Shown: positions 4,024 through 43,086 of the stretch, piece after piece
Numbering within the stretch: position 1 is the first letter of the stretch
How the letters are laid out: every line of letters starts with the position of its first letter
DNA from: Synechococcaceae cyanobacterium
Lineage (GTDB): Bacteria > Cyanobacteriota > Cyanobacteriia > PCC-6307 > Cyanobiaceae
NCBI GenBank assembly: GCA_947442825.1
Contig: CANEWU010000004.1
Location: forward strand, 1 to 48,758
DNA length: 48,758 bases
Direction: 5' to 3'
Notes under the pieces: model-generated
The model's input: the letters and a program-made list of their open reading frames with translations, nothing else
Databases searched by the model: none
What the model was told of the DNA's origin: nothing
Translations under genes and position numbers: made by a program

Positions 4024-5169
4024 TCAACGGCCGCGGGCCGGCGGGGCCAGCAGGGATTCCCGCAATTCGCTCACCACGCCGTGGCGCTTGACGGCGCTGA
4101 TGGCCAGGTCGATGCGATCCGTCGTAGCTGCGCTCAGGGAGGGGGAGTAGACGAAGGCCTGGGACTCGGGCCGAATCCCCTGGAGGGCTAGCCGGGTCTG
4201 CGGCGGCCGCGGTTGCCGCGACTGCAGCCAGGTGAGCTGCAGGTTGTCGGCCAGCACCGCATCCACCCGCTTTTGAAGAAGCAGCGGCGGCCCCTCCGAG
4301 ACCCGCCGGATCAGCACCGGTTGGGCCGGCGGCCCCTCCCCGCGTGCATTCACCTCCCGCAGCAGCGCCTCGCTCACCGATCCGGCCCGCACCGCCACGC
4401 GGCGCCCGCGCAGGTCGTTGGGGCTCTCCAGGCTGCCGCTGAGCCGTCCCTCGATTTCGTTAACAACGGTCACCGTGAGATAGCCCACCAGCAAGGACGC
4501 CGAAACGATGCGCACCAGATAGGCCACCAGCACCAACACGTTGCCGCGGGTGGTATGCACCACCACGTTGCCGCCAGGCCCGGTGGCAAGCACCTGGAAG
4601 AGCTTGCTGATGGCGCGCCTCAGACCCTGCCGCTTGGTCTCCTCCCGCGTGCCGTAGCCCTCCACCGTCCAGGTGAGCCAGGTGAGCAGGGCGATCGCGC
4701 TCAGGAAGCCCCCGAGGAGCTCCAGGAGAGTGGGGCCGAACAGGGACGAGAGGAAGGCCCAGCCGAGATCGAGCCGGGAGTTGGCCACCATCACCGCCAG
4801 CCCGTCCTCCTGGAAGGGAAGGCTGAAGCGGAGCCGGTCGAGGCGTTCCGGCGAAACGTTGATGCAGCCAATCGCCACATCGATGCGGTCGGCGGCTGCC
4901 GCATCCAGGAGGGCGGCGGTGTTGGGCATGGGCCGGATCACGAAGGCCAGTTGCTCGCGGCTGGCGATGCGGTTCCAGAGATCGACCGCCAGCCCCGTCC
5001 ATGCCTCCCCTTCCCGCCACGCGCAGGGTTGGGAGCCATCCACCACCCCCACCCGCAGCACCGGGGCGCTGGTGGCCACCACAGGCGCGGATGGCGCCCC
5101 CGTCGTCACCCTGGGGATGAACGGCGCGAGCAGCGCCAGGGACAGCAACAGCGAACGGAGGCGCGGCAC
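4024..5169 (-). CDS. Ionotropic-glutamate-receptor-like ligand-gated channel (GluR0-type architecture)
   Basis: A 381-residue protein built like prokaryotic glutamate-receptor channels. It has a signal peptide (1-24), a periplasmic-binding lobe S1 (about 36-135), helix M1 (149-169), a pore loop (about 186-205), helix M2 (210-236) and lobe S2 (250-372). S1 carries VSPERLDRLRFSLPF; the Arg at 109 matches the ligand-carboxylate Arg of SBP_bac_3 domains, and Asp303 in VDAVLAD sits where receptors bind the ligand amino group. The pore loop reads LATGPGGN instead of the potassium filter TVGYG. GTG at 5167-5169 is chosen because it gives an uninterrupted signal peptide. It starts 5 bases after DUF3593. 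Ligand and ion are unknown; a sensor rather than a conducting channel is possible. Confidence 0.75.
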   Translation of the reverse strand: MPRLRSLLLSLALLAPFIPRVTTGAPSAPVVATSAPVLRVGVVDGSQPCAWREGEAWTGLAVDLWNRIASREQLAFVIRPMPNTAALLDAAAADRIDVAIGCINVSPERLDRLRFSLPFQEDGLAVMVANSRLDLGWAFLSSLFGPTLLELLGGFLSAIALLTWLTWTVEGYGTREETKRQGLRRAISKLFQVLATGPGGNVVVHTTRGNVLVLVAYLVRIVSASLLVGYLTVTVVNEIEGRLSGSLESPNDLRGRRVAVRAGSVSEALLREVNARGEGPPAQPVLIRRVSEGPPLLLQKRVDAVLADNLQLTWLQSRQPRPPQTRLALQGIRPESQAFVYSPSLSAATTDRIDLAISAVKRHGVVSELRESLLAPPARGR

Positions 5170-20911: not shown

Positions 20912-23359
20912 ATGGGGCGGATCGTCGGCATCGACCTGGGCACCACCAATTCGGTGGTGGCGGTGCTGGAGGGCGGCCGTCCCCAGGTGATCGCCAGCGC
21001 CGAGGGGGGGCGCACCACCCCGTCGGTGGTGGGGTTCAGCCGCGAGAAGGAGCTGCTGGTGGGCCAGCTGGCCCGCCGCCAGCTGGTGCTCAATCCCCGC
21101 AACACGTTCGCCAACCTCAAGCGTTTCGTCGGGCGCGGCTGGGATGAGCTCGAGGAGGGCAGCCTCGCCGTTCCCTACACGGTGCGTGCCAACGACCAGG
21201 GCAATGTGCGCATCGTCTGCCCCGCCACCGAGCGCGAATACGCGCCTGAGGAGCTGGTGGCCTCGATCCTGCGCAAGCTCGTCGACGACGCCGCCACCTA
21301 CCTGGGGGAGCCGGTGGAAGCGGCGGTGATCACCGTTCCCGCCTACTTCAACGACGCCCAGCGCCAGGCCACCCGCGATGCCGGTCGCCTGGCGGGGCTG
21401 CAGGTGGAACGCATCCTCAATGAGCCCACCGCCGCGGCCCTGGCCTATGGCTTTGACCGCAGCGCAGCCCGCCGGGTGCTGGTGTTCGACCTGGGGGGTG
21501 GCACCTTCGATGTGTCTGTGCTGCGCATCGCTAACGGCGTCTTTGATGTCAAAGCCACCAGCGGGGACACCCAGCTGGGTGGCAACGACTGGGATCGCCG
21601 CATCGTCGACTGGCTGTCGGATGCCTTCGAGAAGGACCATGGCCTCGACCTGCGGCGCGACCGCCAGGCCCTGCAGCGCCTCACCGAGGCGGCGGAGAAG
21701 GCCAAGCAGGAGCTCTCCGGCGTGCGCAGCACCCCGATTTCCCTGCCGTTCATCGCCACCGGCGCTGAAGGCCCCCTCCACATCGAGACCACCCTCGAGC
21801 GCGGCACCTTCGAGAGCCTGTGCCCCGATCTCCTCGACCGCCTGCTGCGCCCGGTGCAACGCGCCCTGCGCGATTCCGGCATGGCCGCCGACGACATCGA
21901 CGATGTGGTGTTGGTGGGAGGCTCCACCCGCATGCCGATGGTCCAGGAGATGGTGCGCACCTTGGTGCCGCGCGAGCCCTGTCAGTCGGTGAATCCCGAT
22001 GAAGTGGTGGCGATTGGGGCAGCAGTGCAGGCCGGCATCCTCACCGGCGAGCTGCGCGATTTGATGCTCAACGATGTCACGCCCCTCTCGCTGGGGCTTG
22101 AGACGATCGGTGGGGTGATGAAGGTGCTGATCCCCCGCAACACCGCCATTCCGGTGCGCAAAGCCGACGTATTCAGCACATCGGAAGCCAACCAGAACTC
22201 CGTGGAGATCCACGTGCTGCAGGGAGAGCGGCAGATGGCGGGCGACAACAAGTCTTTGGGGCGCTTCCGCCTCTCCGGTATCCCGCCGGCGCCCCGGGGG
22301 GTTCCCCAGGTGCAGGTGTCGTTCGACATCGATGCCAACGGCCTGTTGCAGGTCTCCGCCACCGATCGCACCACCGGCCGTCAGCAGAGCGTGTCGATCC
22401 AGGGAGGCTCCAACCTCAGCGAGGAGGAGATCCAGAAGCTGCTGGAGGAGGCGGAGCAGAAGGCGGCGGAGGATCGCCGCAAGCGCTCCGAGATCGATCG
22501 CCGCAACCGGGCCCAGACCCTGGTCGCCCAGGCGGAGCGTCGTCTGCGCGACGCCACCCTGGAGCTGGGGCCCTACGGAGCTGATCGTCAGCAGCGGGCG
22601 GTGGAGCTTGCGTTGCGCGATGTGCAGGATCTGCTGGCCGGCGGCGACAGCGCCGAGCTGGAGCTGGCGGTGAGCCAGCTCCAGGAGGCCCTCTTCGGGC
22701 TGAACCGTCGCTTGATGAGCGAGCGCCGCGCCGAGGCTGGCCCTCTCCAGGGCCTGCGAAACACCCTGGGGTCGCTCAAGGACGAGCTGTTCGCCGAAGA
22801 CGACTGGGACGACTGGGACAGTCCGCGGCGGGGCGATCCCTGGTCCACGCTAGAGCGCCGGGGGGACAGTCTCTACGGTGGTTCCTCTCCGTCCCTTTCG
22901 CCCTTCGAGCGACCTGGTTACGAGCGATCTGGCTACGAGCGCTCTGGCTCTGGTGGCTCCTCCAACGGGCGTGCTCCTTTCGAGTCACCAGCGGTTGGTT
23001 GGCGGGCCGATCAGCGCCTGACCTACGAGGAGCCGAGTGATGGGCCCGACCGTTTCCGATCCGCTCGCGAGGAATGGGACGCTTCTGACCGCGCTTCCTC
23101 TCGCCGCGATGCCTACAGCCCGAATTCCTACAGCCCGGATTCCTACAGCGAGGATTCCTATCGCCAGGATTCCTATGCCGAGGATTCCTATGCCGACGAT
23201 GGCAAGGGACGTGATCCCTACGACCGCCGCGAGCGCACGCCCAGACGGGAGCGCCCAGCCGCTCCAGTCTCTTCCCCAGCCCAAGCCCCGGCTGCTAGCC
23301 CGCGCCGTTCTAGGCCCAGCGCGATGGAGGATCCCTGGGCGGATGCGGAAGCGCCGTGA
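20912..23359 (+). CDS. dnaK3: Hsp70 chaperone, DnaK3 type with long C-terminal tail
   Basis: An 815-residue Hsp70, against about 635 for standard DnaK. The nucleotide-binding domain (1-380) has IDLGTTNSVVAV, DLGGGTFDVSVL and VVLVGGSTRMP. The substrate-binding domain (about 390-500) includes LGLETIGGVMKVLI and the lid runs to about 600. A roughly 200-residue tail follows, rich in Ser, Tyr, Arg, Asp and Pro, with six five-residue DSYxx repeats (733-762) and a Trp near the end (MEDPWADAEAP). Long-tailed Hsp70s paired with a short DnaJ are the DnaK3 class, reported to be thylakoid-associated and essential in other cyanobacteria. ATG at 20912. The dnaJ start overlaps its stop by four bases. Confidence 0.92.
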   Translation: MGRIVGIDLGTTNSVVAVLEGGRPQVIASAEGGRTTPSVVGFSREKELLVGQLARRQLVLNPRNTFANLKRFVGRGWDELEEGSLAVPYTVRANDQGNVRIVCPATEREYAPEELVASILRKLVDDAATYLGEPVEAAVITVPAYFNDAQRQATRDAGRLAGLQVERILNEPTAAALAYGFDRSAARRVLVFDLGGGTFDVSVLRIANGVFDVKATSGDTQLGGNDWDRRIVDWLSDAFEKDHGLDLRRDRQALQRLTEAAEKAKQELSGVRSTPISLPFIATGAEGPLHIETTLERGTFESLCPDLLDRLLRPVQRALRDSGMAADDIDDVVLVGGSTRMPMVQEMVRTLVPREPCQSVNPDEVVAIGAAVQAGILTGELRDLMLNDVTPLSLGLETIGGVMKVLIPRNTAIPVRKADVFSTSEANQNSVEIHVLQGERQMAGDNKSLGRFRLSGIPPAPRGVPQVQVSFDIDANGLLQVSATDRTTGRQQSVSIQGGSNLSEEEIQKLLEEAEQKAAEDRRKRSEIDRRNRAQTLVAQAERRLRDATLELGPYGADRQQRAVELALRDVQDLLAGGDSAELELAVSQLQEALFGLNRRLMSERRAEAGPLQGLRNTLGSLKDELFAEDDWDDWDSPRRGDPWSTLERRGDSLYGGSSPSLSPFERPGYERSGYERSGSGGSSNGRAPFESPAVGWRADQRLTYEEPSDGPDRFRSAREEWDASDRASSRRDAYSPNSYSPDSYSEDSYRQDSYAEDSYADDGKGRDPYDRRERTPRRERPAAPVSSPAQAPAASPRRSRPSAMEDPWADAEAP
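23108..23197 (+). repeat. Six 15-base in-frame repeats in the dnaK3 tail
   Basis: Six consecutive 15-base units built on GATTCCTAY encode DAYSP, NSYSP, DSYSE, DSYRQ, DSYAE and DSYAD. The near-identical DNA implies recent tandem duplication. Each unit keeps a Ser-Tyr core and the variation is mostly in the last two residues. Confidence 0.85.
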
Positions 23360-39101: not shown

Positions 39102-39341
39102 TCAGAGGAGGGCGCGCAGCACAGCGATCGCATCGCGGTTGATCAACACCAAGGGAAGGCTGGTGTCCTGGCGCAGGGCGAGAAATTGGTTGTCCTGCCA
39201 CTTGATCGTCCCCTCCAGCTCGTGGCCGCCCACCATGAGGATGCTGACGATGGTGCGGTTTCTGATCAGTTCCCGCACGTGGCGGACACTGGGCAGGCTG
39301 GTGTCGAGTCGAGGGCCGCGGCGCTCGAAGTAGCTCTGCAT
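39102..39341 (-). CDS. hfq: RNA-binding protein Hfq (cyanobacterial type)
   Basis: A 79-residue Sm-fold protein. LPSVRHVRELIRNRTIVSI and LEGTIKWQDNQFLAL match the divergent cyanobacterial Hfq pattern (LPSxRQxxxLI, GTIxWQD). The RNA-binding KH motif of enteric Hfq is absent, as is usual in cyanobacteria. There Hfq is linked to motility through pilus base proteins rather than to classical small-RNA pairing (family knowledge). The start is ATG at 39339-39341. It is divergent from dapF with only 30 bases between starts, so the promoters overlap the neighbouring gene. Confidence 0.9.
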   Translation of the reverse strand: MQSYFERRGPRLDTSLPSVRHVRELIRNRTIVSILMVGGHELEGTIKWQDNQFLALRQDTSLPLVLINRDAIAVLRALL

Positions 39342-39371: not shown

Positions 39372-40580
39372 GTGCTCCCTTTCAGCAAATATCAGGGTCT
39401 GGGCAATGACTTCCTGATCCTCGACGGCCGCGCTGAAGCCGATGGCGAGGCCTGTCTGGGGCTCACCCCCGCGGCGGTCGTCCAGCTCTGCGATCGGCGC
39501 TTCGGGGTGGGCGGCGATGGGGTGATCGTGGCGCTACCACCGCAGCAGGGTGGCGAGCTGCGCATGCGTATCTTCAACGCCGACGGCAGCGAACCGGAGA
39601 TGTGCGGCAACGGCATCCGCGCCCTGGCCCGCTTCCTGGCCGACAGCGATGGCGACCTGCCCGGCCGCACCTGGCAGGTGGAGACCCTGGCCGGGCGGAT
39701 CGTGCCGCAGCTGATGGAGGACGGCCGCATCCGGGTGGACATGGGGGCGCCGTTCCTCGACCCCGCCCAGGTGCCCACCACCCTCCCCCTGGGCCCCTGC
39801 GGCCTGCCCCAGGGGGAGCTGGAGGTGGCAGGCGAGCGGTTGGCAGGAGCGGCGGCCGGCATGGGCAATCCCCATGTGGTGATCCCCGTGGCGGATCTGG
39901 CGGCGGTGGATCTGGAGCGTCTGGGGCCCGCCCTGGAGCATCACCCCGCCTTCCCCGCGCGAACGAACGTCCATTTCGTGCAGGTCCTCGCCCCCAACCA
40001 CCTGGCGATGCGGGTGTGGGAGCGGGGGGCGGGCCCCACCTTGGCCTGCGGCACCGGTGCCTGCGCCACATTGGTGGCCTGCCATCTACTCGGGCTGTGC
40101 GAGAACCAGGCGCGGGTGGATCTTCCCGGTGGTCCTCTGCAGATCAGCTGGGAGGGTGCCGGCCAATCGGTGCTGATGACGGGTCCGGCCGAGCCGGTGT
40201 ACGACGCGGTGGTGGCCCCCTCGCTGTTGGAGGGGCTCCTGGTGGAGATGCCGCAGGGCGACGTCATGGTGGACGGGGAGGTCCACGATGACGGGGAGGT
40301 CCACGATGACGGGGAGGTCAACGACGACGGGGAGGTCGCCGAAGTCCGCGAGGTTGGCGTGTCTGGCGCGTTGAGCAGCTCGATCGATTGCGCTACGGCC
40401 TGCGTGGAGGGCTGCCGCCAACCCGATGCCTGCCCGAGCGCCGAGGCCCGTGCCAGGGTGGAAGCCCTGCTCGGCAGCCGATCCCTCGACGAACTGGTGG
40501 AGATCGCCACCAGCACCGCCGAATCGCGCGGCCGCGAGCGCATCCTGCGCGATCTGGGGACCCTGCCGAACGGGAGCTGA
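39372..40580 (+). CDS. dapF: Diaminopimelate epimerase with unusual repeat-linked C-terminal extension
   Basis: The first 290 or so residues are a complete DapF, converting LL- to meso-diaminopimelate for lysine and peptidoglycan. FSKYQGLGNDFLILDGRA opens the fold. The two catalytic Cys are in MCGNGIRALARF (near 78) and ACGTGACATLVA (near 222). Normal DapF ends around MTGPAEPVYDAVV. Here the frame continues another 110 residues: an acidic repeat (301-323, DGEVHD units), then a tail with C340-x3-C344-x3-C348-x5-C354 (DCATACVEGCRQPDACPS) and a helix ending in NGS. GTG at 39372. The cysteine desulfurase gene starts one base after its stop. The tail could instead be a separate small protein with an internal start. 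Confidence 0.9.
   Translation: MLPFSKYQGLGNDFLILDGRAEADGEACLGLTPAAVVQLCDRRFGVGGDGVIVALPPQQGGELRMRIFNADGSEPEMCGNGIRALARFLADSDGDLPGRTWQVETLAGRIVPQLMEDGRIRVDMGAPFLDPAQVPTTLPLGPCGLPQGELEVAGERLAGAAAGMGNPHVVIPVADLAAVDLERLGPALEHHPAFPARTNVHFVQVLAPNHLAMRVWERGAGPTLACGTGACATLVACHLLGLCENQARVDLPGGPLQISWEGAGQSVLMTGPAEPVYDAVVAPSLLEGLLVEMPQGDVMVDGEVHDDGEVHDDGEVNDDGEVAEVREVGVSGALSSSIDCATACVEGCRQPDACPSAEARARVEALLGSRSLDELVEIATSTAESRGRERILRDLGTLPNGS
40272..40340 (+). repeat. 18-base tandem repeat inside dapF
   Basis: Three full 18-base units (GACGGGGAGGTCCACGAT and two near copies at 40290 and 40308) plus a 15-base partial fourth. The length is a multiple of three, so gain or loss of units keeps the frame. They encode an acidic DGEVxD linker between the epimerase and the Cys-containing tail. 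Confidence 0.9.
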
Positions 40581-40581
40581 G

Positions 40582-41775
40582 ATGGCGATCTATCTGGACG
40601 CCTGTGCCACCACGCCGCCCGCCGCCGAGGTGCTGGCGGCCATGGCCGCCGCCAACGATGAGGCCTGGGCCAATCCCTCCAGCACCCATGGCTTCGGCCT
40701 GGCGGCGGCCGAGCGTCTGGAGCGCAGCCGGCTGACCATTGCTCGGGTGCTGGGGGCGGAGAGCACCGAGGTGCTGCTGGTCTCGGGCGGCAGCGAAGCG
40801 ATCCACACCGCCCTGCTCGGGGTGGCCGGCGGCCTGGAGCCCGGGCGTTTGCTGATCTCGGCGGTCGAGCACCCGGCCACCGTGGCCGCCGCCGAGATGC
40901 TGCGCCAACGCGGCTGGGAGGTGCGCAAGCTCCCGGTTGACCGCCAGGGGGTGATCGATCTCGACAGCCTCAAGCGCCTACTGGAGCCCCCCACCCGGCT
41001 GATGTCCCTGATCTGGGGGCAGAGCGAGGTGGGCACGATCCAGCCGGTGGAAGCGATCGGCGCCCTCTGCCGCGAGGCCGGCGTGCTGCTCCACGTGGAT
41101 GCGGTGCAGGTGGCCGGCCATCTGCCGGTGGATTTCGCCACCCTGCCGGTGGATCTGCTCAGCTGCGCCTCCCACAAGCTGCAGGGCCCGCGGGGCATCG
41201 GTGCGCTGTTGGTGCGCTCCGGCCTGCGGCTCACCCCGCTGATCGGTGGGGGCGGCCAGGAGGCGGGACGGCGGGGCGGCACGGAGGCGGTGGCCCTGGC
41301 CGCCGGCTTCGCCCGTGCCATCGAGCTCGCCGACGATCGCCTGCGGCTGCACGGCGGCATCGATCCGATCGGCGAACTGCGCGACTCCCTGCTGAACCAG
41401 CTGCTCGCCCTGCCCGGTGTACGCCTCAGTGGCCCCGATCCCGCCCCGCCGGGGGCCCGCCTGCCCCATCACATCAGCCTGCTGATGGCCACCCCCAGCG
41501 GCCGCCCCCTCTCCGGCCGCCGCCTGGTGCAGACCATGTGGCAACAGCGCTACGCCGTGAGCAGCGGCTCGGCCTGCAGCAGCGGCCGCGGCGCCAACCC
41601 CTATGGCCTGGCCCCCAGTCCGATCCTGCTGGCGATGGGCTACGACGAGCACGAGGCGGCCACCGGCCTGCGCCTCAGCCTGGGCCACTGGCTCTCCGCC
41701 GCGGAGTTGGAGGGGGTGCCGCCGGCCCTTGAGCGGGCTCGCCAGCGGGTAATGGCCGGCGAGCCCGTCGGCTGA
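40582..41775 (+). CDS. Cysteine desulfurase (NifS/IscS-like)
   Basis: A 397-residue PLP enzyme that takes sulfur from cysteine to a persulfide. IYLDACATTPPAAEVL at the start (YLDNAATTP in most relatives), PLP-His region SAVEHPATVAA, PLP-lysine in SCASHKLQGPRGIGALL near 205, and the catalytic Cys in VSSGSACSSGRGANPYG near 335 on the extended loop of the NifS/IscS class. It supplies sulfur for Fe-S clusters or tRNA thiolation. No scaffold gene is adjacent. The ATG at 40582 is one base after dapF, so the two are cotranscribed. The Cys-rich dapF tail just before it may be relevant (inference). Confidence 0.92.
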   Translation: MAIYLDACATTPPAAEVLAAMAAANDEAWANPSSTHGFGLAAAERLERSRLTIARVLGAESTEVLLVSGGSEAIHTALLGVAGGLEPGRLLISAVEHPATVAAAEMLRQRGWEVRKLPVDRQGVIDLDSLKRLLEPPTRLMSLIWGQSEVGTIQPVEAIGALCREAGVLLHVDAVQVAGHLPVDFATLPVDLLSCASHKLQGPRGIGALLVRSGLRLTPLIGGGGQEAGRRGGTEAVALAAGFARAIELADDRLRLHGGIDPIGELRDSLLNQLLALPGVRLSGPDPAPPGARLPHHISLLMATPSGRPLSGRRLVQTMWQQRYAVSSGSACSSGRGANPYGLAPSPILLAMGYDEHEAATGLRLSLGHWLSAAELEGVPPALERARQRVMAGEPVG

Positions 41776-41831
41776 GGCCCCCGCGCCGAGAAGGCGTGGG
41801 TAAGGTCGCTCCTCTGTCCCTTGTGAGGGCC

Positions 41832-42509
41832 ATGCTGCCGGCCGATCTCCGCACCGCCGAGGCCCAGCTCCTTGGTGGCCTCCAGGCCGCCCTCGCCGCC
41901 GAGCCCGCCGGTTGCTGGACGGTTGAGTTGCGCTTCGTGGGCCTGCGGGTGCTGCCGGTGGCCCTGCGACTCGCGGCATCTCTCACCGCCGAACGGGAAA
42001 CCTCCCTACTGCTGCCCGACGCCGGGGCCGCCGCCCTGGCCCGTCGGGATGCCCCCGATCTGGCGGCCTCCATCTCCAGCTTCTCCGACCACCTGCGGCG
42101 CCAGGGTGAGGCGGGCAGCGAGGGCCTGTTGCTGCTCGTGGCCCCCAGCCAGGCGGAGTACGAAACGGTGGAATCGCTCTGTGGGCTCCATCGGGGCCCT
42201 TTGGTGCTTCTCAACCCCGCCCTGGAGGATGCGGCGGTGGGCATCGGCAGTGTTGCCCGCCAGCGTCGCCGAGGCTTTCTTTCCCTCTGGCAGGCCGCCT
42301 ACGCCCTGCTGCCCCAGAACGGCAGCGCCCTGCGCCGCGCTTTTCCAGGGCCGTGGGAGCTCTATCGCCTCGATGCCGATGGCTTCCGGGCTGTCGCCGA
42401 GTTTGAGCAGAAACCTGATGGGGAGCAGCAGGGCGAAGCCCTCGGCGAGGGGGGAGCCGCCGCTGGTCTGCGGTCCCTCGGCCAGCTGATCGAGGGGCTG
42501 CAGCGCTGA
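41832..42509 (+). CDS. DUF1995 family protein (LPA3-like)
   Basis: A 225-residue soluble protein. MLPADLRTAEAQLLGGLQAA, RFVGLRVLPVALRLA, LLLVAPSQAEYETVESL and a WELYRLDADGFRAVAEF end match the DUF1995 family of cyanobacteria and chloroplasts. The plant member LPA3 is linked to photosystem II assembly, but a role here is only inferred. ATG at 41832 fits the family start; a GTG nine bases earlier is possible. TAAGGT at 41801-41806 could be its -10. The last 35 residues are Gln/Glu/Gly-rich and variable. Confidence 0.8.
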   Translation: MLPADLRTAEAQLLGGLQAALAAEPAGCWTVELRFVGLRVLPVALRLAASLTAERETSLLLPDAGAAALARRDAPDLAASISSFSDHLRRQGEAGSEGLLLLVAPSQAEYETVESLCGLHRGPLVLLNPALEDAAVGIGSVARQRRRGFLSLWQAAYALLPQNGSALRRAFPGPWELYRLDADGFRAVAEFEQKPDGEQQGEALGEGGAAAGLRSLGQLIEGLQR

Positions 42510-42564: not shown

Positions 42565-43086
42565 ATGGCCAGCGAAACCCCCTCCCGCTCCTGGACCCTG
42601 GTGGACCTGGGAGCCGGCGCCGCCGTTCTGCTCGCCCTTGTGGGCGTGATCTGGAGCCCCAAGCTCAGCAATGCGGTCGCCCGCGCCACCGGCGACGTCC
42701 AGACCCTCACCGTGACCGTGGACGTGCGTGGCGAACCCGTGGCCGATCCGGCGGCGATGCTGGCGAGCGCTGAGAAGGACGGCAAGGTGAAGTTCGTGAT
42801 CCGCAACCAGCCCCACGGCTCGGTGCGGATCGATCGAATCATCCCGCTGCAGCGCCGCCTGTCGATCCTCACCCCCGATGGGCGGGTGGTCAGCGCGCCG
42901 GATCCCAACCAGAAGACCTTCGGCACCTTCGACGGCCGCTACGTGCTCACCGGTGAGGGCCGCCGGGCCGAGGGGGGCGTGGTGCTCGGCAACGCCACCC
43001 TCAAGATCGGGGCGCCGGTGGAGCTGGAGGGCAGCAACTATCGCTTCAACGGAACCGTCACCGATCTGCGCCTGGGAGCGTCCTGA
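42565..43086 (+). CDS. DUF4330 membrane-anchored protein
   Basis: A 173-residue protein with one N-terminal membrane helix (about 13-30, LVDLGAGAAVLLALVGVIWS) and a beta-rich domain: VQTLTVTVDVRGEP, a VIRNQPHGSVRIDRII motif and VTDLRLGAS at the end. This is the DUF4330 pattern common in cyanobacteria. Function unknown. The bulk should face the periplasm or lumen. It ends one base before the start of dacB (TGAGATG), so the two are cotranscribed, hinting at an envelope role. Confidence 0.8.
   Translation: MASETPSRSWTLVDLGAGAAVLLALVGVIWSPKLSNAVARATGDVQTLTVTVDVRGEPVADPAAMLASAEKDGKVKFVIRNQPHGSVRIDRIIPLQRRLSILTPDGRVVSAPDPNQKTFGTFDGRYVLTGEGRRAEGGVVLGNATLKIGAPVELEGSNYRFNGTVTDLRLGAS

Follow-up and report, generated by a model that had tools for sequence, protein, structure and literature searches.

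The DapF protein encoded in the window (the whole stretch of 48,758 nucleotides of cyanobacterial DNA that was analysed) carries a second domain at its C-terminus. The last ~60 residues of its tail are homologous to a stand-alone cyanobacterial protein of 60-95 amino acids. Judged by its sequence, the tail is a member of a conserved, unnamed, cyanobacteria-specific family of small proteins, and the gene is a real domain fusion of this microprotein onto DapF. The attached domain is under purifying selection, its four cysteines are retained or disappear together, and two other genomes contain the small gene unfused, in frame, directly behind dapF.

Organization of the fused gene

A single open frame on the forward strand, running from a GTG at 39372, the assumed start, to the TGA that ends at 40580, encodes 402 residues (Table 1). 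Approximately the first 283 of these, the end of the core being approximate, form an ordinary DapF. This part scores 269.3 bits against TIGR00652 (cut-off 114.65), which places it in the family, and both catalytic-cysteine motifs, EMCGNG and ACGTGAC, are found in its translation. The window's protein differs from DapF as described by TIGR00652 and PF01678 in having, in addition, a linker and a four-cysteine domain. After the linker the tail reads IDCATACVEGCRQPDACP and continues into a predicted helical stretch. The sequence-only reading had described just such a DapF with a linker, a C-x3-C-x3-C-x5-C motif and a helix, and the four cysteine codons could be located in the one open frame. Its placing of the tail outside any epimerase domain also agrees with the searches, in which the DapF part matched TIGR00652 and PF01678 and the tail alone had no match in Pfam or NCBIfam.

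Table 1. Positions in the window of the parts of the fused gene and of the flanking genes
Feature	Position	Strand	Evidence
Cyanobacterial Hfq-related RNA-binding protein gene, divergent to dapF	39102..39341	-	NF047718 66.6 bits (cut-off 52); PF21979 2.8e-19
DapF catalytic core	39372..40229	+	TIGR00652 3.5e-80; PF01678 2.9e-62; EMCGNG and ACGTGAC motifs
Variable linker, nearly free in sequence and length	40230..40382	+	dN/dS; length and composition vary among relatives
Acidic array of 3.7 tandem copies of an 18-bp unit (DGEVHD), not conserved	40272..40337	+	Tandem Repeats Finder score 118
Four-cysteine microprotein domain, including the C-terminal end	40383..40577	+	Homology to stand-alone family; dN/dS 0-0.23
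C-x3-C-x3-C-x5-C motif	40389..40433	+	Cysteine codons at 40389, 40401, 40413, 40431
Two helices predicted to form a hairpin, which contains the SLDELVEIA segment	40440..40556	+	AlphaFold2; segment kept in 18 tails without the cysteines
Stop codon TGA of the fused gene	40578..40580	+	Open frame
NifS/IscS-type cysteine desulfurase	40582..41775	+	PF00266 9e-61; TIGR03402 5e-90, under the model's cut-off

The acidic repeat that had been read as part of the linker is a real array, with a period of 18 and a 95% match, and is the top-scoring array found in the window by Tandem Repeats Finder, but it lies outside the conserved unit, which consists of only the last ~60 residues. In the closest relative (G032), whose tail is 93% identical, a PEMAQ-type repeat sits at the position of the acidic repeat. 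The acidic repeat was therefore rejected as a functional element and is particular to the window's genome. Elsewhere in the window, 15-bp tandem repeats (22906-23200; up to 5.5 copies, score 94) occupy the C-terminal part of a DnaK-like open reading frame (20912-23359, 815 amino acids), which has a low-complexity tail of the SYSPDSYSEDSY type.

Upon comparison of close pairs of genomes, dN/dS was found to be 0-0.23 for the tail domain, where the short length makes the counts small, 0.035-0.17 for DapF and mostly 0.2-1.4 for the linker. Purifying selection on the tail domain is about as strong as on DapF, and the linker is nearly unconstrained. This contrast, together with the exchange of the acidic repeat for PEMAQ in the closest relative, shows that the domain is a working part and the linker a spacer.

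The stand-alone family

Outside the window's taxonomic family, a single-sequence search of 60 genomes mostly matched short open frames of 65-100 amino acids, with E values of 2e-8 and weaker. The window matches the family profile with an E value of 1.7e-23 and a 40-sequence profile with 5.0e-20; the latter contains the window's own tail, so that the independent support is the single-sequence value of 2e-8. Stand-alone homologues, which the sequence-only reading had proposed to look for in cyanobacteria, thus exist across the Cyanobacteriia. The family is present in 240 of 290 genomes of this class (profile search, fused and unfused copies pooled). A phylum-wide sample of 146 genomes gave 50 matches, all of them in Cyanobacteriia and none in the genomes outside that class. 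Two short patterns were run against 84,980 prokaryote species, each represented by a single genome; 346 relatives were confirmed, and the 80 that were kept have cyanobacterial names. Phages and plasmids contained no match to the family. In the window's genome no copy besides the fused one was found. One genome (G048), presumably Gloeobacter violaceus, has a weak and divergent copy, and its locus (L049, ~4624-4911) encodes a member with a longer spacing ahead of the last cysteine (CAEVCQSGCIEAANGTPEKCP).

The four cysteines are invariant in the 40-sequence alignment, 39 members of which are stand-alone proteins of other cyanobacteria. The invariant columns are C9, C13, G16, C17 and C23, a glycine thus preceding the third cysteine, and the helix segment is also conserved. 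The window's tail has the same cysteine spacing, the same glycine and the SLDxM/L helix segment. It differs from the stand-alone proteins in being fused and in lacking the PPKWV-type C-terminus with which most of these free proteins end; this ending is also missing from the other tails of the window's genus and from several stand-alone members. Because the same cysteines are invariant in the alignment and recur with exact spacing in the DapF C-termini (74 of 117 distinct sequences), the motif is not a product of chance, and the conservation on which the earlier proposal depended has held.

The domain has no relative in the PDB by sequence and no family model in Pfam or NCBIfam, and searches of the open-licence literature with motif strings and sets of terms found no paper on the family or on the DapF tail. 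Two described proteins resemble it. NsiR6/NblD is a small protein with four conserved cysteines, widespread in the cyanobacterial phylum (PMC5126843), and resembles the tail family in size, host and number of cysteines. However, its first cysteine pair is C-P-V-C (C-x2-C) as opposed to C-A-T-A-C (C-x3-C) in the window, and on this described spacing (PMC5126843) the tail is probably not NblD/NsiR6. The first 20 bases of NblD gave no match in four genomes. CP12, a small four-cysteine protein of photosynthetic organisms, has one cysteine pair near either end, and these pairs create two loops (PMC7760959), whereas the four cysteines of the window's protein all lie within 15 residues.

Distribution and origin of the fusion

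Besides the window's own genome, 36 genomes of its genus were searched and 34 of them have the tail, with E values of at most 5e-15 and in open frames able to hold DapF. The two exceptions are uninformative, as dapF is cut at a contig end in one (G012) and no dapF was obtained from the other (G036). Every genome of the genus with a complete DapF therefore has the fusion. It is also spread across much of the window's family and recurs in a second fused family, being present in each of the four matching genomes from the order of G045. Among the matches listed, out of 240, just one further open frame was long, and it turned out to be a separate gene (G312); more fusions are possible among the roughly 80 weaker matches beyond these. 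In most cyanobacteria the linker and four-cysteine domain are missing from DapF. Judged by the DapF tree, which is affected by long branches and uneven composition, the two fused groups may have arisen by one fusion event or by two.

The window comes from a draft genome of 209 contigs, and a frameshift or assembly error might have fused two genes, as the sequence-only reading had allowed. The same fusion is, however, found in tens of independent genomes, including two that are single contigs (G020 and G023), and the domain is under purifying selection. There is hardly any doubt that no such error occurred, and an artificial join was rejected on the number of genomes that share the fusion.

The proposal of a fused small protein is strongly supported by the stand-alone homologues and by G046 and G257 (the latter taken to be S. 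elongatus PCC 6301), two genomes from a single genus in which the same parts lie unfused. In both, dapF ends in a stop codon (TAG or TAA), which is followed after 12 nucleotides by the ATG of the small gene, which shares the frame of dapF, and then by nifS; an hfq-related gene and leuS are situated nearby. Two adjacent open frames share a frame by chance in one of three cases. This arrangement is likely to be the pre-fusion state and would look like the stage that precedes a fusion through loss of a stop codon. The opposite course, fission of an older fusion, may also have produced it.

The cysteine motif and the helical hairpin

The 117 distinct DapF C-termini come from related genomes and do not represent independent draws; the exact motif is present in 74 of them, 18 lack it but retain the helix, and in the other 25 the tail is missing or decayed. 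No C-terminus carries two or three of the motif cysteines, and one (L178) appears to retain the last cysteine only. The C-termini of L202 and L203 (G087 and G128, genus g52) resemble a decayed tail, with no cysteine motif and little helix. In the DapF tree the helix-only state must have changed six times or more, counting branches with good support, and the motif was therefore lost repeatedly. The helix is still constrained after the cysteines have gone (pooled pN/pS 0.23), and no separate four-cysteine copy was found in the helix-only genomes. The repeated loss of the cysteines with retention of the helix shows that certain lineages of marine and symbiont-like character can do without the cysteine site. 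The all-or-none pattern fits one cooperative site, formed either by a metal or by paired disulfides. Retention or loss of the four cysteines as a unit is thus consistent with the putative binding of a metal or an Fe-S cluster by the tail; disulfides fit the pattern as well.

An AlphaFold2 model of the window's tail (40356-40577; mean pLDDT 73.6) has helices at residues 29-41 and 44-67. A stand-alone member was modelled with a mean pLDDT of 79.7, the first 20 residues being at ~65 and the hairpin at ~90. In both models the confidence is lower in the cysteine region and higher in the helical hairpin. A missing metal can give such a low-confidence cysteine region, although this is no proof of one. 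A Foldseek search returned no solved structure at E values of up to 10.

Neighboring genes

The cysteine desulfurase begins with an ATG at 40582, one base past the stop codon, as had been noted from the sequence. In the window the next two genes after it encode a DUF1995 protein (41796-42509) and a DUF4330 protein (42565-43086), and a DUF1995 gene lies behind nifS in most of the related loci too. In the window's family nifS follows dapF even where the cysteines are lost or the tail is missing. Among 97 stand-alone loci with a mean length of 8.9 kb, dapF or a nifS relative lies within a few kb on either side of the small gene in only one (L039, from G046).

No neighbor of the stand-alone gene is shared by more than 18 of ~98 loci. 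In 18 loci (for example L087, 1522-3048) a minus-strand gene of ~470 amino acids lies upstream of the stand-alone gene; from its start sequence it is presumably MnmE-like. Its recurrence may reflect merely the kinship of the sampled genomes.

The adjoining desulfurase had led to the suggestion that the tail receives sulfur from it, and the domain could accordingly be a sulfur acceptor or an Fe-S scaffold supplied by this enzyme. The four cysteines and the position of nifS, in the window's family as in G046 and G257, speak for this. Nevertheless, the suggestion is weak and such a role improbable, because both dapF and nifS are missing from the surroundings of the small gene in 96 of the 97 stand-alone loci and because nifS still adjoins dapF after loss of the cysteines or of the whole tail. 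For the same reasons the neighboring nifS says little about the chemistry of the tail.

Probable role of the domain

The explanation given somewhat better than even chances is that the tail arose by capture of the small protein and that in it the four cysteines form one metal centre and the hairpin binds a partner, DapF serving as the carrier. In most cyanobacteria the small protein is free, has 60-95 amino acids and has its gene at a distance from dapF. At some point in the ancestry of the fused lineages, this gene would have become the immediate downstream neighbor of dapF, sharing its frame and preceding the desulfurase gene. Once dapF had lost its stop codon, or had undergone some comparably small change, the small protein would have become a domain at the C-terminus of DapF, tethered by a flexible linker. 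The four cysteines would hold a single metal centre (Zn or Fe-S) and thereby brace the helical hairpin where it starts, and the hairpin, with its TSLDxMLEIA segment, would form the partner-contact surface. DapF would carry or anchor the module, its catalysis being independent of it, and the attachment itself may be of value. DapF lacks the tail in small, Prochlorococcus-sized genomes, and the DapF of Anabaena, which is of ordinary length and tail-less, is kinetically normal (PMC12039745), showing that the tail is not required for catalysis.

A metal centre is the most likely function of the cysteines and a redox role the next. As a redox switch, the cysteines would pair into two disulfides that open and close reversibly, as in CP12; these would report the light/dark or oxidative state and alter partner binding by the hairpin and, when fused, possibly the activity of DapF. 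Two disulfides also agree with the all-or-none pattern; all members of the family that were found belong to Cyanobacteriia, whose photosynthetic metabolism is governed by thiol switches, and DapF itself employs a thiol/thiolate pair (PMC12039745). The confinement of the cysteines to 15 residues is, however, unlike the separated pairs of CP12 (PMC7760959), and since 96 of 97 stand-alone loci are unlinked to dapF, a switch specific to DapF was not the ancestral role. A switch of this kind is on balance rather unlikely. Slightly more credible, though still doubtful, is that the fusion was a tolerated accident: the module would continue an old job unrelated to DapF, and its attachment would have no function. 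An unconstrained linker, a DapF that works without the tail, and repeated loss of the cysteine part and of the entire tail are what such an accident would leave. Nevertheless, the attachment persists in much of the family, and the helix remains on DapF under constraint after the cysteines have been lost, which hints at a role of the helix linked to DapF.

Implications

Annotation of the gene as plain "DapF" conceals the second domain. The fusion provides a handle, as the small protein could be purified on an enzyme that can be assayed. Natural variants already separate the parts, having the four cysteines and the helix, the helix only, or no tail, so that the role of the cysteine site is testable by swaps between existing proteins. 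More speculatively, the microprotein may be a near class-wide carrier of a metal or redox centre, the fusion in picocyanobacteria coupling DapF, and with it lysine and cell-wall precursors, to the metal or redox state; the cysteine sensor would then have been lost several times and the docking helix kept. Being present in most of the Cyanobacteriia sampled, unmatched outside this class in the searches described here and having no family model, the small protein is a good candidate for a function linked to oxygenic photosynthesis.
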